NCBI RefSeq assembly: GCF_032399705.1
Contig: NZ_CP135922.1
Coordinates: 62,001 to 126,000, forward strand
Length of the DNA stretch: 64,000 nucleotides
Source: Paenibacillus sp. BIC5C1
GTDB lineage: Bacteria > Bacillota > Bacilli > Paenibacillales > Paenibacillaceae
Direction: 5' to 3'
Part shown: positions 4,348-37,068 of the stretch, piece by piece
Position numbering within the stretch: the first letter of the stretch is position 1
Layout: each line of letters starts with the position of its first letter
The notes under the pieces: model-generated
What the model was told of the DNA's origin: nothing
Database searches by the model: none
Seen by the model: the letters and a program-made list of their open reading frames with translations, nothing else
Translations under genes and position numbers: made by a program

Positions 4348-4450
4348 AGGTGTTAAACCGCTTGTGATTCGTTTCTCAAGCGAAAATAACGACTTGGATT
4401 TGCCATATAAAACAGCGTATAAGGCTGTCCCGATAAGGAGAGGATCACAG

Positions 4451-5389
4451 GTGGAAGCTCTGGCTTTAGAGCGCAAGGCTGAGATGAACCGGGAGCTGCG
4501 CGAGCGGCTGATGGAGTTGAAGAAGGAACGTAATGCTATTATTCTTGCCCATTATTATCAACGTGACGAGGTACAAGAGGTCGCTGATTTCCGGGGAGAT
4601 TCGTTTTTGCTGGCTCAGAAGGCGGCACAAACCGATGCGGATGTTATCGTTTTCTGCGGGGTTCATTTTATGGGTGAAAGCGCTAAAATTCTTGCCCCTA
4701 ACAAAACGGTTATCATCCCTGACGAACGTGCAGGCTGCCCAATGGCAGACATGGTGAACGTTGAAGGCTTACGTAAGTTGAAAGCACAGCACCCGAATGC
4801 CAAAGTTGTAACGTACATCAATTCCTCAGCTGAGATCAAGGCAGAGACCGACATCTGTTGTACATCGGCCAATGCTGTCAGAGTCATTCAATCTGTTGAT
4901 TCCGATGAAATCATCTGGGTACCGGATAAAAATCTGGGACATTATGTGCAACAACATACAGACAAGAAAATGATTATCTGGGAAGGTTACTGCAATACCC
5001 ATGATATGCTGACGGTCAAAGACGTGGTTGAGATGAGAGCGAAGCATCCAAATGCAGAGTTTGTTGTTCACCCGGAATGTCGTCCTGAGGTCGTAGAGAT
5101 GGGTGATTTCGTAGGTAGCACAACCGCCATTCTGGAATATTGTAAAAATTCATCCGCTAAGGAATTTATCGTAGGCACTGAGGATGGTACAGGATACCAA
5201 CTGCGTCTCGATAGCCCGGACAAACAATTCCACTTTGCTACGAAGTTCCTTGTATGTCCGAATATGAAGGTCAACAACTTGAAAAAGCTGGTTAAATGTC
5301 TGGAAACGATGAAGCCGCAGATTTACGTGCCATCGGCTGTTGCTGACAAAGCCAGAGAATCACTAGAGCGCATGTTACTGGTGAAGTAG
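4451..5389 (+). CDS. nadA: quinolinate synthase NadA
   Basis: [4Fe-4S] enzyme that condenses iminoaspartate (from NadB) with dihydroxyacetone phosphate to give quinolinate in de novo NAD synthesis. I chose GTG 4451 (312 residues) because AAGGAGAGG sits 8 nt upstream. The frame stays open to an ATG at 4337, but that codon lies inside the promoter and the extra 38 residues do not look like NadA. Visible NadA features: AHYYQRDEVQ, FCGVHFMGES with the first cluster cysteine, a CCTSAN cysteine pair, HPECRPEV, and the C-terminal CPNMKVNNL cysteine. The length fits the short NadA class. It is followed by nadB and nadC, probably as one transcript. Confidence 0.95.
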   Translation: MEALALERKAEMNRELRERLMELKKERNAIILAHYYQRDEVQEVADFRGDSFLLAQKAAQTDADVIVFCGVHFMGESAKILAPNKTVIIPDERAGCPMADMVNVEGLRKLKAQHPNAKVVTYINSSAEIKAETDICCTSANAVRVIQSVDSDEIIWVPDKNLGHYVQQHTDKKMIIWEGYCNTHDMLTVKDVVEMRAKHPNAEFVVHPECRPEVVEMGDFVGSTTAILEYCKNSSAKEFIVGTEDGTGYQLRLDSPDKQFHFATKFLVCPNMKVNNLKKLVKCLETMKPQIYVPSAVADKARESLERMLLVK

Positions 5390-29357: not shown

Positions 29358-30839
<1,482 letters not shown>

Positions 30840-30861
30840 TCTGAATTGTGTTAATCATTTC

Positions 30862-30902
30862 CAGGACAGGCTTGGCGATTTTCGCCGGGCCTGTCTTTTT
30901 TT
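30862..30902 (+). terminator. terminator after guaB
   Basis: GACAGGC-GGCG/CGCC-GCCTGTC stem and seven T. Confidence 0.92.
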
Positions 30903-31272
30903 GCGGATACCCCTGTGATAGAATAGAACAAGCGGTGATGATCCTTTAATGGATTAGGGCGTTGCGGCGGTTTTTTGACGTGAGTCTATGAAACTGCTTC
31001 TGACAATGATTTTTGAGTGGTAGAAAAAGGTTGAAGGTTGCCCAGCGAAAAAAGAAGCGCGGACGTCCTTTTACATAAGCATTTCATTTAATGCTAACTA
31101 AGTGACAATCGATTCGAACTTTAGGAGCAATGACATTGCTCTTTCGATACAGCGCATATACAACACACATCTCACACATCATCTTCACCTGTTAGGGACT
31201 AAGAAAATATTGCAGCTCAAGCTGTACTGAAGCACACAATAGAAAGCTTCGGACCGAAGGGAGTATTCATCA
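30903..31272 (+). other. dacA upstream region
   Basis: A 370-nt stretch without a gene. It has an extended -10 candidate (TGATAGAAT, 30916-30924) lacking a clear -35. It also has a perfect inverted repeat GAGCAAT-GAC-ATTGCTC at 31125-31141 followed by TTT, which might be a weak terminator or an operator. The rest holds nothing I recognise. Confidence 0.5.
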
Positions 31273-32661
31273 TTGAAAGCCAAACAAATGAATAAGAAAA
31301 AACGTCAAATGCTCAAAAAAAGCGTAGCCTCGGTTATGCTGATTAATATGCTCTGCATGTCTGCGGTAATGCCTGTTATGGCTGCTGCAAACGATTCAGG
31401 GCAGATCTTGACCGCGGCGGCAACAACAACGAAGACTGAAAAAGCCGTGGACATTCCTTCGGCAGACTCCCTGGGACTCGATGTTAAATCAGCCGTACTG
31501 ATGGAGGCTTCAACGGGTCAAATTCTACTCAATGTTAATGCGGATAAAGCTATGCCGCCTGCTAGTATGACTAAAATGATGACAGAGTACATTGTGGCTG
31601 AACAGGTTAAGCAAGGAAAGTTTAGTTGGGATGATATTGTAACTGTAGGTGAAAATGCAGCCAAGAGTACAGGTTCCCGCATTTTCCTTGCAAAAGGTGA
31701 CCAACATACAGTTAAGGAGCTGTACATTGCTATGGCTGTAGGTTCAGCCAACGATGCTACGGTTGCTCTGGCTGAATATGTTGCAGGCTCCGAGCAAGCT
31801 TTTGTGAAAATGATGAATGATGAAGCGAAGCGTATGGGAATGAAAGATAGCTACTTCATCAACTCCACAGGACTGGATCGTGCAGATATGCCTGCGGATT
31901 TCCGCCCTACCGAGGATAAGGAAATCGTCATGTCGGCACGGGATGCAGCCATTTTGTGCAGATATATCATCATGGATCACCCGGACTACAAAGATTTCAC
32001 GACAATTCAATCCTATAAATTCCGCCCCAATGACAAAGATCCAATTATTAACTATAACTGGATGCTGGAAGCGAATAAAAATATAACCAACTTCAAAAGC
32101 TATGCCTATGAGGGTCTGGACGGGATGAAAACGGGCCATACCACGAACGCAGGGAATAACTTTACCGGTACGGCTGAGCGTAATGGCATGCGTCTGATCA
32201 GTGTGGTTATGGGTACCGATTCGGAGCCAGCGCGTTTCAGAGAAACGAAGAAAGTATTGGACTTCGGATTCAACAATTTTGAAGTGAAACAGGCGGTTGC
32301 TGCCAAAACTAAAGTCACAGGCTGGGAAGCTGTACCTTTGAAAAAAGGGAAGGAAACAACAGTACCTGTTGTGACAGATAATGCAGTAAGTTTCGTTGTA
32401 CCTAAAGGTACTCAAAACCTGGACGTGACATTTAAGGCGAATGTTACTGAAGCTGATAAGCTGGTTGCTCCAATTAAGGCCGGAACCAAGGTTGGTACGG
32501 TTACTTATACGTACAAAGCAGAGGGAATTGAGCCACAAGAGAAGACAGTGAATCTCATCACCGCAGAAGAAGCGGAAAAAGGTGGTTGGTTCCGTCTCTT
32601 CTTCCGTGCAGTGAAAGATTTCTTCGTTGATCTGTTTGATGGCATCAAAAACCTGTTCTAA
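31273..32661 (+). CDS. dacA: D-alanyl-D-alanine carboxypeptidase (PBP5/DacA type)
   Basis: Removes the terminal D-Ala from peptidoglycan pentapeptides, limiting cross-linking. It has 462 residues. A signal peptide ends near VMAAAND. The SxxK motif is S98-M-T-K101, the SxN equivalent is in the AVGSAND stretch, and KTG is at 286-288. A C-terminal beta domain is followed by an amphipathic membrane anchor (WFRLFFRAVKDFFVDLF). Start TTG 31273 follows AAGGGAG; an ATG six codons later (31288) is an alternative. It precedes pdxS/pdxT, as in Bacillus. Confidence 0.95.
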   Translation: MKAKQMNKKKRQMLKKSVASVMLINMLCMSAVMPVMAAANDSGQILTAAATTTKTEKAVDIPSADSLGLDVKSAVLMEASTGQILLNVNADKAMPPASMTKMMTEYIVAEQVKQGKFSWDDIVTVGENAAKSTGSRIFLAKGDQHTVKELYIAMAVGSANDATVALAEYVAGSEQAFVKMMNDEAKRMGMKDSYFINSTGLDRADMPADFRPTEDKEIVMSARDAAILCRYIIMDHPDYKDFTTIQSYKFRPNDKDPIINYNWMLEANKNITNFKSYAYEGLDGMKTGHTTNAGNNFTGTAERNGMRLISVVMGTDSEPARFRETKKVLDFGFNNFEVKQAVAAKTKVTGWEAVPLKKGKETTVPVVTDNAVSFVVPKGTQNLDVTFKANVTEADKLVAPIKAGTKVGTVTYTYKAEGIEPQEKTVNLITAEEAEKGGWFRLFFRAVKDFFVDLFDGIKNLF

Positions 32662-32753
32662 TAGATAAGGTGAAAGAAGACGGGTTAATATGACATTTTC
32701 AATATAATGTCGTCAGACTATTGACAAAATACAAGTATTTCCGACCGGATGGA

Positions 32754-32782
32754 TTGTATATTTACAATTTTTCCGGTAAAAT
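32754..32782 (+). promoter_or_regulatory. weak candidate promoter of the pdxS remnant-pdxT unit
   Basis: TTGTAT (32754-32759), 17-bp spacer, TAAAAT (32777-32782), 120 bp upstream of the pdxS remnant. The -35 matches consensus poorly. A TTGACA at 32721 has no -10 at proper spacing. Confidence 0.3.
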
Positions 32783-32902
32783 ATCAAGTTAGAATTCTAC
32801 GTATAAATCAGTTAAAAAGTCTATTGTTCTTCTAACTGACACTGCATATTCCACATCCTGTTTATGGACAAGAACGATACATCCATTACGGTATATTGGG
32901 GT

Positions 32903-33072
32903 ATGGAAACGGGAATAGCACGCGTTAAAAGAGGTGCCAAAGCGCGGATCGGACATGATGTGGCGCCAAGGACTTGGGTGAATCGTTGCGCCTGATTGGC
33001 GAAGGTGCTTCCATGATCGGTACCAATTCCAAACTTGCACCTTCCGAGCCCATGCAGGATCGCGGCTGGTAA
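32903..33072 (+). pseudogene. pdxS: pdxS remnant with multiple internal deletions
   Basis: PdxS is the synthase half of PLP synthase and is normally about 294 residues. Here only four fragments remain, in the right order: the N-terminus METGIARVKRG (32903-32935), AKARIGH (32936-32956, about residues 79-86 of the family), CGAKDLGESLRLIGEGASMI (32959-33018, about 127-147), and the C-terminus KLAPSEPMQDRGW ending at TAA 33072. Everything between is missing, and the second junction shifts the frame, so reading from the ATG stops early at 32993-32995. The TIM-barrel active-site lysines cannot be assembled from what is left. The usual ribosome site is also absent. The gene cannot encode a working PdxS. 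The alignment is from memory of the family and needs a search, but the shared ends and order leave little doubt. Confidence 0.85.
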
Positions 33073-33090
33073 GAGAAAGGTGGATTTTAA

Positions 33091-33681
33091 ATGAAGATCG
33101 GCGTTTTAGCACTTCAAGGGGCAGTCACCGAGCATATTCGTAGTATTGAACGGGCTGGCGCAGAAGGATTGGCGATTAAACAGGTTCAGCAACTTGAGGA
33201 GCTGGATGGGTTGATTCTTCCTGGTGGTGAGAGTACCACAATTGGCAAACTGATGCGCAAATATGGTTTCATGGAAGCCATTCGGGCATTCGCTGCAGAG
33301 GGGAAACCGGTATTCGGCACCTGTGCTGGTTTGATTGTTATGGCCAAACATATTGCAGGACAAGAGGAAGCTCATCTGGAGCTAATGGATATGACCGTCT
33401 CTAGAAATGCATTTGGACGGCAGAGGGAAAGCTTTGAAACGGATCTCCCAGTAAAAGGCATTGAGGAGACGGTAAGGGCTGTGTTCATCCGGGCACCTCT
33501 AATTGAGCGTGTAGGGGAAGAGGTAGAAGTTCTCTCCACATACAAGGATGAGATTGTTACTGCCCGCCAGGGACATCTGCTGGCTTGCTCCTACCACCCT
33601 GAGCTGACAGATGATTATCGACTGCATACTTACTTTGTGGACATGGCTAGGTCGTATAAACAGCCTGTACAGAACCAATAG
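33091..33681 (+). CDS. pdxT: pyridoxal 5'-phosphate synthase glutaminase subunit
   Basis: Class I glutaminase that feeds ammonia to PdxS for PLP synthesis. It has 196 residues and is intact. The nucleophile is C78 in FGTCAGL, the oxyanion segment LPGGESTTIGK is at about 45-55, and the catalytic His/Glu pair is in CSYHPELTDD. ATG 33091 follows AAAGGTGG. PdxT is active only in complex with PdxS, and the pdxS just upstream is a remnant, so either an intact pdxS exists elsewhere or this gene is losing its function. Confidence 0.96.
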   Translation: MKIGVLALQGAVTEHIRSIERAGAEGLAIKQVQQLEELDGLILPGGESTTIGKLMRKYGFMEAIRAFAAEGKPVFGTCAGLIVMAKHIAGQEEAHLELMDMTVSRNAFGRQRESFETDLPVKGIEETVRAVFIRAPLIERVGEEVEVLSTYKDEIVTARQGHLLACSYHPELTDDYRLHTYFVDMARSYKQPVQNQ

Positions 33682-33702
33682 TGATTGATATACAACCTAT
33701 GA

Positions 33703-33848
33703 CTGCCGGTGAACCGGATCAGTCCTCCAGAGGCTCACAAGGCTTGCTGGCAAGGTGCTGTCTGGTTAGATGCCTGATGTTGCCCGTATCTGCTTTCAAA
33801 GCGGGAATCGCAGCATAGGGCAGCACCGGAGGCCATAGGTTATTTTTT
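33703..33848 (+). ncRNA. candidate structured RNA ahead of serS
   Basis: Several stems can be drawn: CCGG-TGAA-CCGG (about 33706-33717); CCTCC (33724-33728) with GGAGG (33828-33832); GGTGCTG (33754-33760) with CAGCACC (33821-33827); and inside this CCCG (33783-33786) with CGGG (33802-33805). A T-rich stretch, TTATTTTTT, follows at 33840-33848. Bacillus serS has a T-box leader, but I find no T-box core (GGTGGNACCGCG) here. It could be an unusual attenuator, a pdxT terminator, or a separate RNA. No family assigned. Confidence 0.45.
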
Positions 33849-33944
33849 ACCATTAAGAAATGATGAAGTTATAAGGCTGCAAAGTTTTGGCAGGAGTTAA
33901 GAGGAAGATTTCTACTTTGTGGTGTTATTTAGGAGGGGTATTTA

Positions 33945-35228
33945 GTGCTTGATGTGAAAATATTGCGGAATGAGTATGCACGTGTTGAAGAAGCATTGAC
34001 GAAACGTGGCAAGTCGCTGGATCTAATCGCCGGGTTCACGGATATGGATGCCAAGCGTCGCGAGTTGCTGCAAGAGAGTGAAAACCTGAAAAGTCGCCGG
34101 AATACGGTATCTGGAGAAGTGGCCAAGCTTAAAAAGAGTGGTGAAAATGCCGACGAGTTGATCCTTGAGATGCGTGAAGTCTCCGATCGAATCAAAGCAA
34201 TGGATGAAGAAGTGCGTGAGTTGGAAGTGAAGATCAACGATCTGACTATGGCGATTCCGAACATCCCTAACGAGAGTGTACCTGTTGGTGCGTCCGAAGA
34301 TGATAATGTGGAGATTCGTCGTTGGGAAGAGCCGAAGTCCTTTTCATTTACACCAAAAGCACACTGGGAAATCGCACAGGATCTCGACATTCTTGATTTT
34401 GAAGCGGCTGCCAAAGTAACAGGCTCCCGTTTTACCTTTTATAAAGGATTGGGTGCACGTTTGGAACGTGCTTTGATCAACTTTATGATGGATCTACACA
34501 GCGATCAGCATGGGTATGAAGAGATTCTGCCTCCATACATCGTTAACCGTGACAGCTTGTTTGGAACTGGCCAACTGCCGAAATTCGAGGAAGACCTGTT
34601 TAAGCTGAAAGATACCGAGTATTATTTGATCCCTACCGCTGAAGTTCCGGTAACGAACTATCATCGCGAAGAGATTTTGAATGCAGACCAACTGCCTAAA
34701 CACTTTGTGGCGTACAGCTCATGTTTCCGATCTGAAGCAGGTTCTGCTGGACGGGATACACGCGGCTTGATTCGTCAGCATCAGTTCAATAAAGTTGAGT
34801 TGTTGAAACTGTCTTCTCCTGAGACCTCTTATGAGGAATTGGAGAACATGACACTAAATGCGGAACGTGTGCTTCAATTATTGGGGCTGCCTTACCGTGT
34901 TCTGACGTTGTGTACAGCAGATATGGGCTTCACATCTGCCAAAACATATGACATTGAGGTTTGGTTGCCGGAAAGCAATACGTATCGCGAAATCTCGTCT
35001 TGCTCCAACTGTGAAGACTTCCAAGCACGTCGAGCTAATATCCGTTTCCGTAGAGAGCCAAAAGCGAAACCGGAATTTGTCCATACATTAAATGGTTCAG
35101 GACTGGCAGTGGGGCGTACAGTAGCTGCTATTCTGGAGAACTATCAACAAGAAGATGGAACAGTGGTTATTCCTGAAGCACTTCGTCCTTACATGGGTGG
35201 AGTCAGCGTGATTGCCCGTCGATCCTAA
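33945..35228 (+). CDS. serS: seryl-tRNA synthetase
   Basis: Charges tRNA-Ser. It has 427 residues. The N-terminal long coiled-coil arm (about residues 25-105) binds the long variable arm of tRNA-Ser. The class II core follows: motif 2 around [21 protein letters not shown] and motif 3 [18 protein letters not shown]. Start GTG 33945 has AGGAGGGG at 33931-33938. A tRNA-Ser gene lies 4 kb downstream. Confidence 0.97.
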
Positions 35229-35252
35229 GATTTTCAACTAAATGATTGAAAT

Positions 35253-35317
35253 AAAAAACCGTCTCCTGACAAATGGGAATTTAGAACGTTCCATTTTCAC
35301 AGGGCGACGGTTTTTTG
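35253..35317. terminator. bidirectional terminator between serS and the SLH protein gene
   Basis: AAAAAACCGTC and GACGGTTTTTT outer arms with an inner AAATGGGA...TTCCATTT stem; T runs on both strands serve both convergent genes. Confidence 0.88.
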
Positions 35318-35379
35318 TAGTTTATTTTTTATGAAGACGATACGTTAGCCATGATTTCCCCTAAGCGAAAGCGTAAATA

Positions 35380-37068
35380 TTAGTTCATATATTCAATGGA
35401 GCGAAGCGTACGCACCAAGATCATAAGTGCTTCGTCTGTGGATGCTGCTTTTTTCGGCTCGAAGGAAGTCCCGAATGTATCTTGAAGCAAATCGAGCGAT
35501 GTCAAAGCCTGGACTTGGGCTGTGGCCCAAGGAGAGATAGAATCTTGGTCCAGATAGGATATCACAGCTGAGCTATTAGCGACAGAATCTCCTCCTGCAT
35601 ACTGAATTGCCCGATAGACCATGCTTGCGAGCTCTTCCCGGGTGACCTGACGATCGGCACGGAATGTTCCATCCGCATAGCCTTTGACAATTCCAAGGTG
35701 TGCAGCGGTTGCCGCATACGATTGTTCCTCAGTCACATCCCGGAAAGAGGTATTCTTAGATACGATTCCGTTTGCTCCTAAGGCGGAAACTAATAATTGG
35801 GCGACCTGTCCGCGTGTGATCGGTTCACCCGTCTTCAATTGATTCAAAGCAAGTAGTTGTTTGTTCTGCATGTATTGGATGCTGTTTATCGACGAATCAT
35901 CGTCTGAAGTATCTATCTGTTCGTCTGAAGCAATAACATAAGTGCTGTATTGCATGTCCCGTATTCTTACCTCCCATTGTCCTTTATCTTGGACGAAATA
36001 GGCTGGCACGTAGGAATATGTCCGCGTTTCTTCATTGAACCCGAGAACGGTTGCTGTCTGTGGGTCAAGATCTGTAGTACCAAGGTGGATGACCCGAGTC
36101 ACATGTTTTAATTCTTCTTGATCCAGCTTGAGCGTTTGGTCACCAGCCACCCATTGTACATTGAAACGTAAAGGCTGTACCAACAATTTTAGGCCGGCTG
36201 GTAATGATTGTTTTAGGTTAGACAATTCATCGTTGGACAGGATATCAATGTTAATCTGGAGATCAAGCTTTTCGGTTGGCACATGCAGTAGAGATGATGC
36301 ACGTTGAATATTTAATTTATTCAAAGCTAACGCCATTTTGGACTGATTGCTGTACAGAGTGAATGAAGAAACTTTTTCCTGTGAGCGCAGAAAAGAAAGA
36401 ACTTCCTTCGGTAGTGTCAATTGAATGTGCGGAACACTTGGCAATATAGTTACAGACAAATCATTCAGATGATCAAGAGTAGATAACTTACGTACGACAC
36501 TCGAATCTACGGATACGGAAACAGTGCCATTATCCAATTTCCCATGTATCCATTGGTTTAGGCTATTGGCTGCAGAACCCATAGATGCGGAAGAATCAAT
36601 AATTGAGTTGCCAACTGTGGCTGAGTTGGAGGTTTGTGATGACGAGCTGCTGCTCTCAGGCCTGTTTCCTCCAGACTCAGGCTCACCGCCACCAGACTCA
36701 GGCTCACCGCCACCAGACTCGGGCTCACCACCGCCAGATTCAGGCTCACCGCCGCCAGACTCAGGCTCACCGCCACCAGACTCAGGCTCACCGCCACCAG
36801 ACTCAGGCTCACCGCCACCAGATTCAGGCTCGCTGCTCCCCTCATCATCTCCATCAGGATCGGCTGATGCTTTTTCCATTCCGAAGAAATGCTGAAAATA
36901 GCTAATCGAATCTCCCTTGTATATGTCGTCAGCTTTGTAATCAATGGCGTTACCCGCCAATACATGTGTCATTAGCCCGGCAGCCAATACGGTCGTCTTA
37001 ACGGCACGTTTTCTAGCGTTTCCGGCTTTAAGCATTTGCTGATGAACATTCTTTCTTTTCTTTTTCAT
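35380..37068 (-). CDS. secreted SLH-domain protein with EPESGGG repeats
   Basis: A 562-residue exported protein. The N-terminus is strongly basic and followed by a hydrophobic segment (about residues 22-40), likely a signal peptide or anchor. At about 75-135 there are eight EPESGG(G) repeats encoded by 21-bp units, then a serine-rich linker. The middle region (about 150-400) is unfamiliar. The C-terminus carries S-layer homology modules (TRGQVAQLLVSALG, then FRDVTEEQSYAATAAHLGIVKGYADGTFRADRQVTREELASM-type text), which attach proteins to the cell wall. About two SLH modules are clear. AAGGAGTG precedes the ATG. It follows the ATP-grasp gene by 26 nt, probably in one operon. Confidence 0.85.
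   Translation of the reverse strand: MKKKRKNVHQQMLKAGNARKRAVKTTVLAAGLMTHVLAGNAIDYKADDIYKGDSISYFQHFFGMEKASADPDGDDEGSSEPESGGGEPESGGGEPESGGGEPESGGGEPESGGGEPESGGGEPESGGGEPESGGNRPESSSSSSQTSNSATVGNSIIDSSASMGSAANSLNQWIHGKLDNGTVSVSVDSSVVRKLSTLDHLNDLSVTILPSVPHIQLTLPKEVLSFLRSQEKVSSFTLYSNQSKMALALNKLNIQRASSLLHVPTEKLDLQINIDILSNDELSNLKQSLPAGLKLLVQPLRFNVQWVAGDQTLKLDQEELKHVTRVIHLGTTDLDPQTATVLGFNEETRTYSYVPAYFVQDKGQWEVRIRDMQYSTYVIASDEQIDTSDDDSSINSIQYMQNKQLLALNQLKTGEPITRGQVAQLLVSALGANGIVSKNTSFRDVTEEQSYAATAAHLGIVKGYADGTFRADRQVTREELASMVYRAIQYAGGDSVANSSAVISYLDQDSISPWATAQVQALTSLDLLQDTFGTSFEPKKAASTDEALMILVRTLRSIEYMN
36671..36838 (-). repeat. eight 21-bp tandem coding repeats
   Basis: Eight contiguous copies of a 21-bp unit beginning CCAGA(C/T)TC(A/G)GGCTC on the plus strand, each encoding EPESGGG on the minus strand. 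Units differ by a few silent changes. The copy number may be variable between strains. Confidence 0.93.

Follow-up and report, generated by a model that had tools for sequence, protein, structure and literature searches.

Recurrent erosion of pdxS beside a retained pdxT in Paenibacillus and the probable role of an acquired pdxR-pdxS locus

In the genus Paenibacillus, the pdxS gene that lies between dacA and pdxT has been eroded independently at least six times, and pdxT has been kept at its old site. It is very probable that an acquired pdxR-pdxS locus made the resident pdxS redundant, and that the resident pdxS was then eroded and pdxT retained. The locus from which the analysis starts lies in a stretch of 64,000 nucleotides (the window), C1:62001-126000 of a 7.08-Mb single-contig Paenibacillus genome. 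The genus set comprises 75 genomes, the window's included, and a genome is termed split when its pdxT has no adjoining full pdxS and one full pdxS lies elsewhere. By this definition 33 of the 75 genomes are split, 31 hold the original pdxST only, and 11 hold the original together with a second full pdxS.

The resident locus in the window

The locus (Table 1) shares its gene order and its upstream block with the canonical dacA-pdxS-pdxT-serS arrangement of Bacillus and Paenibacillus, which we take to be the gene order of B. subtilis, but differs from it in the fragmentation of pdxS, a state found in 33 of the 75 genus genomes. When aligned with the pdxS of G066, a close relative in which the gene is intact, the remnant accounts for 170 of the 882 nt of the gene in collinear pieces, so that 81% is gone. 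All four pieces were recovered by blastn against the intact pdxS of G020 at 84-98% identity, and the E-values of 3e-6 to 3e-18 argue that they are not chance matches. The remnant contains stops, and its frame is shifted by the 118-nt deletion. A sequence-only reading of the window had described a skeleton of pdxS in which both ends and two inner fragments stand in the right order, with about 80% of the coding region lost through at least three deletions, one of them with a frameshift. The alignment bears this description out, and the comparisons with G066 and G020 agree that the fragments are PdxS. The same reading held the neighbouring pdxT to be intact, and this is confirmed: the protein is full length and scores 269.5 bits against TIGR03800, for which the curated cut-off is 105.55. 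The GTCAG and SYHPE motifs, which we take to be the catalytic motifs of PdxT, can be read from its sequence. An Rfam scan of 30800-35400 gave no match at E<=0.1. Further downstream, on the minus strand at 35380-37068, there is an ORF of 562 aa that carries a 21-nt tandem repeat (36671-36831, 7.7 copies) with units of the GGGEPES type.

Table 1. Features of the dacA-serS region, in window coordinates
Feature	Position	Strand	Description and basis
dacA-type D-Ala-D-Ala carboxypeptidase gene	31273..32661	+	Upstream neighbour; ORF list; Pfam PF00768, E 3.7e-71
Conserved promoter-like block	32754..32792	+	TTGTAT 32754-32759, 17-nt spacer, TAAAAT 32777-32782; core GGTAAAATATCAAGTTAG 32775-32792
pdxS remnant, whole	32903..33072	+	ATG at 32903; TAA ends at 33072
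pdxS remnant, piece 1	32903..32935	+	pdxS nt 1-33; alignment to intact G066, blastn to G020
pdxS remnant, piece 2	32936..32956	+	pdxS nt 235-255; preceded by 201-nt deletion; alignment to G066, blastn to G020
pdxS remnant, piece 3	32957..33026	+	pdxS nt 374-443; preceded by 118-nt deletion, frameshift; alignment, blastn
pdxS remnant, piece 4	33027..33072	+	pdxS nt 837-882, with stop codon; preceded by 393-nt deletion; alignment, blastn
pdxS-pdxT gap	33073..33090	+	Holds pdxT ribosome-binding site (as read); sequence; alignable across 33 split genomes
pdxT, intact glutaminase subunit	33091..33681	+	The genome's only pdxT above the family cut-off
serS	33945..35228	+	Downstream neighbour; ORF list and Pfam scan

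All 33 split genomes, and 20 of the 42 others, have an exact copy of the core of the upstream block. Over 17 amylolyticus-type genomes and G037, the 40 columns that precede the core are conserved at 0.94-0.99, the columns immediately beyond them at 0.89-0.91 and more remote ones at 0.73-0.86; in this profile G005 is omitted, the value of 1.00 for the core reflects its choice as the anchor, and ungapped anchoring depresses the outer values. The distance from TAAAAT to the start of pdxT is about 1026 nt where pdxS is intact, and elsewhere takes values such as 431, 359, 314, 258, 225, 210, 178, 130 and 123 nt, with a minimum of 100 nt; it is the deletions in pdxS that bring pdxT from about 1026 to 100 nt from the conserved block. 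On the right side, even in the smallest remnants the final 22-24 nt of pdxS survive, together with the gap that holds the pdxT ribosome-binding site. The conservation suggests that the upstream block, presumably the old promoter of pdxS, now serves as the promoter of pdxT. A scan with the sigma-70 consensus did not call the block on the plus strand, TTGTAT matching the consensus at 3 of 6 positions; the three promoter-like sites that the scan returned all lie on the opposite strand and are not in excess of shuffled sequences (mean 2.4). Both ends of pdxS would survive because the promoter-like block, in its presumed role, bounds the erosion on the left and the pdxT ribosome-binding site bounds it on the right. 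Of the earlier claim that decay had kept the ends in an unusual manner, the survival of the ends stands, but the unusualness gives way to this simple explanation. A near-palindrome, CCGGATGGATTGTATATTTACAATTTTTCCGG, extends across the promoter-like block (window 32745-32776). It could be an operator or the remnant of a dacA terminator, and it is absent in G010 and G011, though pdxT is retained there.

Distribution and repeated erosion in the genus

A full pdxS is present in all 75 genomes, in each of the 33 split genomes at a place away from pdxT, and pdxT is flanked by dacA and serS in all 75. At E<=1e-150, 36 of the 75 genomes have a PdxR, and in every one of the 36 its gene adjoins the second pdxS. 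The original pdxS is lost in 31 of these and kept in five (G020, G037, G042, G065 and G066). Among the 39 genomes without PdxR, 37 keep the original, six of them together with another kind of second pdxS; the other two, G010 and G011, are split and have a different MocR-type gene upstream, in tandem. Three split clades have two-copy genomes as their sisters, namely G037, G020/G042 and G065. In 6 of the 11 two-copy genomes the second pdxS is of other kinds, the genome is not sister to a split clade and the resident is kept, and a second copy thus need not bring loss. G008 and G046 hold a deep-branching second pdxS beside other neighbour genes, presumably a gene for a MOSC-domain protein in both and a YggS-like gene in G008. 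The frames of pdxT and pdxR in G005, and those of pdxR and adjacent genes in G055, appear broken, perhaps through sequencing errors.

The association of another pdxS with loss of the original is in part a truism, and the independent pairs are too few for significance. When presence of a second copy is compared with loss, 3.5 of 7 pairs go the same way, 0 go the opposite way and 3.5 show no difference (median p 0.125); for the PdxR-linked copy, 2.4 of 3 pairs go the same way. A pdxS match was obtained in 339 of 344 genomes of the family, and 13 hand-picked genomes outside the genus were inspected for the split.

On the tree of dacA and serS the split state needs six changes, one of them possibly a regain in G066. 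This genome holds both pdxS genes intact though it is nested among remnant-bearing genomes. It is possible that its resident locus regained an intact pdxS by recombination; a tract restoring pdxS could not be demonstrated by sliding identity. The remnants in the genus, which keep about 22-288 nt, are of six types, either mutually incompatible or placed on separate branches. The window type, with junctions 33|235 and 443|837, is shared by G056, G073, G000, G058, G015 and G016, and by G057 with the first junction 1 nt off. The G021 type keeps about 461-566 and 789-882 and is without the 1-33 and 235-443 of the window type. In the illinoisensis type (4 genomes) the remnant runs from about 737 to the end, in the amylolyticus type (18 genomes) from 790 or later to the end, and in G010 and G011 it consists of pdxS nt 832-882. 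In G032, from a distant species of the genus, nt 1-166 and 811-882 survive, with four stops across the family match; its sister G065 still holds both pdxS copies. A seventh erosion, at an early stage, is seen in G302 of another genus, where the start codon reads CTG, the frame contains a stop and 69 and 201 nt have been deleted, lengths that agree with three of four references. The blastn recheck covered 12 of the 33 remnants. Junctions from MAFFT pairwise alignments differ from those of the main alignment for G021, G032, G022, G070 and in part G056; blastn supports the main alignment. Matches of 2-8 nt in the remnant alignment are probably spurious, and the smallest remnants are for this reason given as about 22-24 nt.

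The order of the deletions can be followed within the window's clade. The 201-nt deletion is common to the window remnant, G056, G073, G058, G015 and G016 (in G057 to within 1 nt). G056 is an intermediate: of the deletions it carries just those of 201 and 393 nt, neither of which disturbs the frame, and its remnant is open over 95 codons. In G000, G058, G015 and G016 there is an additional deletion of 118 nt flanked by the 5-nt repeat TATGT; G073 lacks 117 nt instead, the loss lying between two 13-nt stretches that are almost identical, GCCAAGG[T/A]CTTGG, as they stand in G056. Short repeats would explain two of the four junctions of this clade, and the other two are without a clear repeat. 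The supposition made from the sequence, that deletion and not point decay dominated, gains support from the intermediate G056 and from the remnants of only about 22-24 nt, and comparison of the locus in relatives adds that the erosion in the 33 genomes stands at several stages.

The distant pdxS and its origin

The one full pdxS of the window's genome occupies C1:4019446-4020063 of the minus strand, at a distance of about 3.9 Mb in contig coordinates, and its product scores 513.3 bits against TIGR00343 (cut-off 438.45). The second pdxS that had been offered as one way out of the apparent lack of a subunit is thus present. No pdxT adjoins it. The genome has no clear pdxT other than that of the window, a second SNO match (C1:161062-161361) reaching 23.2 bits, which is below the cut-off, and PdxJ gave no match in the window genome (0/1). 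A strong terminator-like hairpin of 16 pairs lies 3' of the distant pdxS. On its other side the gene is divergent from that of a PdxR-type regulator of 496 aa, which combines a GntR DNA-binding domain (PF00392) with an aminotransferase-like domain (PF00155) and scores 433.9 against NF052282 (curated cut-off 320). The divergent arrangement of pdxR and the second pdxS is found in 36 of 36 loci, and between the two genes lies a block, AAGTGGTACAAT...ATTGGATCTTTTTA, mostly conserved in at least 80% of the 36 loci, a putative site which we take to resemble the PdxR site of C. glutamicum. The distant pdxS is probably under PdxR control. According to passages of PMC5320631, PdxR binds between pdxR and pdxST and activates the pdxST operon. 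The PdxR-controlled pdxST loci of B. clausii, L. monocytogenes, C. glutamicum and S. pneumoniae are alike in the MocR-type PdxR gene divergent from pdxS and in the conserved blocks between; the present locus differs from them in being without pdxT, which is supplied by the old dacA-serS site, and in that PdxR control is putative.

Purifying selection acts on both separated genes, pdxT and the second pdxS, in each of three tested split clades, the dN/dS sample comprising 29 of the 33 split genomes and 19 of the 42 others. The mean pairwise dN/dS of pdxT is 0.047, 0.041 and 0.036 in the three split clades versus 0.034, 0.034 and 0.052 in three intact groups. The values for the second pdxS in the split clades are 0.008-0.019, and those of intact residents are 0.003-0.009. 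The window's clade, at 0.019, lies above the range of the intact residents, and PdxS is perhaps held slightly less strictly there.

The 36 PdxR-linked pdxS genes form one clade (SH-aLRT 97; 86 when the tree was widened to 150 genes). Its sister in the 150-gene tree (support 95) is the pdxS of G358 and G377, which belong to another genus and whose only full pdxS sits in a complete pdxR-pdxS-pdxT locus. The AU test rejects a tree in which the residents of the core group form one clade with its second copies (p 0.0006, lnL difference 62), a group that was picked after the tree was seen. The trees suggest that the pdxR-pdxS locus was acquired horizontally, from outside the lineage, and that the newcomer probably descended from a pdxR-pdxST operon. 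Since tblastn over 900 nt from the pdxS end found no pdxT relic at E<=0.1 behind any of the 36 PdxR-linked copies, it is the gene tree, and not a relic, that points to the loss of pdxT from the newcomer; the weakest leads, in G072, G012, G073 and G057, had E-values of 0.13 to 0.44. One clade for the PdxR-linked copies of 11 taichungensis/pabuli-type genomes is not clearly rejected (p 0.073), so that the locus may have passed from the amylolyticus-type clade into G042. G247 has a layout like that of G358 and G377, but its pdxS sits on a long branch in another part of the tree, outside the PdxR-linked clade, and the identity of its PdxR is 65%. In G358, G377 and G247 the gap between dacA and serS has no pdxS or pdxT match; a relic that resembles the upstream block is still present in it, AGTAAAATTAAAAGTTAG in G358 and G377.

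The reverse arrangement is found in G062 and G063. There a second pdxS of the other type is intact, its pdxT is reduced to codons 1-40 and 156-187 (a relic at about 4380-4600 after orientation), and the resident pair is intact. The gene upstream of this second pdxS is presumably glutamate-1-semialdehyde aminotransferase-like. Most simply read, a gene supplied by one site is lost from the other.

Proposed history, other readings and significance

In the proposed history, a lineage with the ancestral dacA / pdxS-pdxT / serS order would have gained a divergent pdxR-pdxS pair without pdxT. The resident pdxS, now redundant, would have been eroded by successive internal deletions, some of them at short direct repeats. 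The resident pdxT would stay essential because the newcomer brings no pdxT, and the erosion would halt on the left at the pdxT promoter and on the right at the start of the pdxT ribosome-binding site. The distant PdxS and the resident PdxT would then act jointly as a PLP synthase made from two distant loci, the lyase subunit from the acquired locus and the glutaminase subunit from the old site.

Horizontal gain would not be needed if the resident pdxS had been moved or duplicated within the lineage and its old copy had decayed. In keeping with this, the second PdxS of the window genome is about 96-97% identical to the intact residents of close relatives, and the left neighbours of the second locus are common to some taichungensis- and illinoisensis-type genomes; the rejection of a single clade by the AU test and the grouping of the second copies with pdxR-pdxST loci of another genus make it unlikely. 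It is unlikely, too, that the remnant is retained as a short translated leader which couples translation to pdxT. Among the six deletions whose length is clear, five have lengths divisible by three (201, 393 and 117 in the window clade, 69 and 201 in G302, but not 118), for which the chance is about 0.018, and the remnants of G056, G057 and G073 are open in frame up to the pdxS stop. The count is, however, post hoc with n=6, and start-codon deletions and unclear lengths (G032, the G057 variant) are uncounted in it; the window remnant is frameshifted with stops, and the pdxS start is gone in 25 of the 33 split genomes.

The other two explanations had been raised from the sequence itself. An assembly collapse that hides a full pdxS at the window site is exceedingly improbable, as separate deposits of relatives show identical junctions, among them G058, which is called the same species, and different remnants are found in others. 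A strain that no longer makes B6 and uses external vitamers, pdxT being a leftover, would also have a split at the locus, and the split is real; the presence of a full pdxS and a clear pdxT, and the purifying selection on both in the three split clades (dN/dS 0.008-0.019 for the second pdxS and 0.036-0.047 for pdxT), make such a loss very unlikely and reliance on external B6 unnecessary as an explanation.

In displacement by a paralog or xenolog, a second copy renders the resident redundant and the resident decays. The proposed displacement by an acquired pdxR-pdxS locus resembles this general course, and operon splitting, in the decay of a redundant resident after a second copy, but differs in being recurrent at one site, in affecting one subunit only, in its graded series and visible stops, and in the mirror image in G062 and G063. 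Our impression from limited searches is that this combination is unreported. No account of a split of pdxS from pdxT was found among the titles and abstract openings listed, which is weak evidence of absence, and the word Paenibacillus is absent from the main texts of PMC5320631 and PMC9997740. Passages of the latter report that, among genomes without a predicted pathway, 32 have only a PdxT homologue and 8 only PdxS, and cite the rescue of a B. subtilis pdxT mutant by extra pdxS.

The genus offers a natural time series in which an operon loses its first gene and keeps its second, in at least six lineages and with two-copy, intermediate and end stages extant. The series points to the sequences under selective protection, namely the upstream block and the ribosome-binding site. 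In strains that make the subunits of a large complex from separate genes, the value of operon co-expression for stoichiometry becomes directly testable. There is about an even chance that a horizontally spreading pdxR-pdxS locus, having lost its pdxT, relies on the pdxT of its host and tends, wherever it settles, to drive the erosion of the resident pdxS. The resident site would then retain what the newcomer does not bring, and the outcome would be a chimeric PLP synthase with subunits that differ in ancestry, location and control, a PdxR-regulated lyase and a glutaminase expressed separately.
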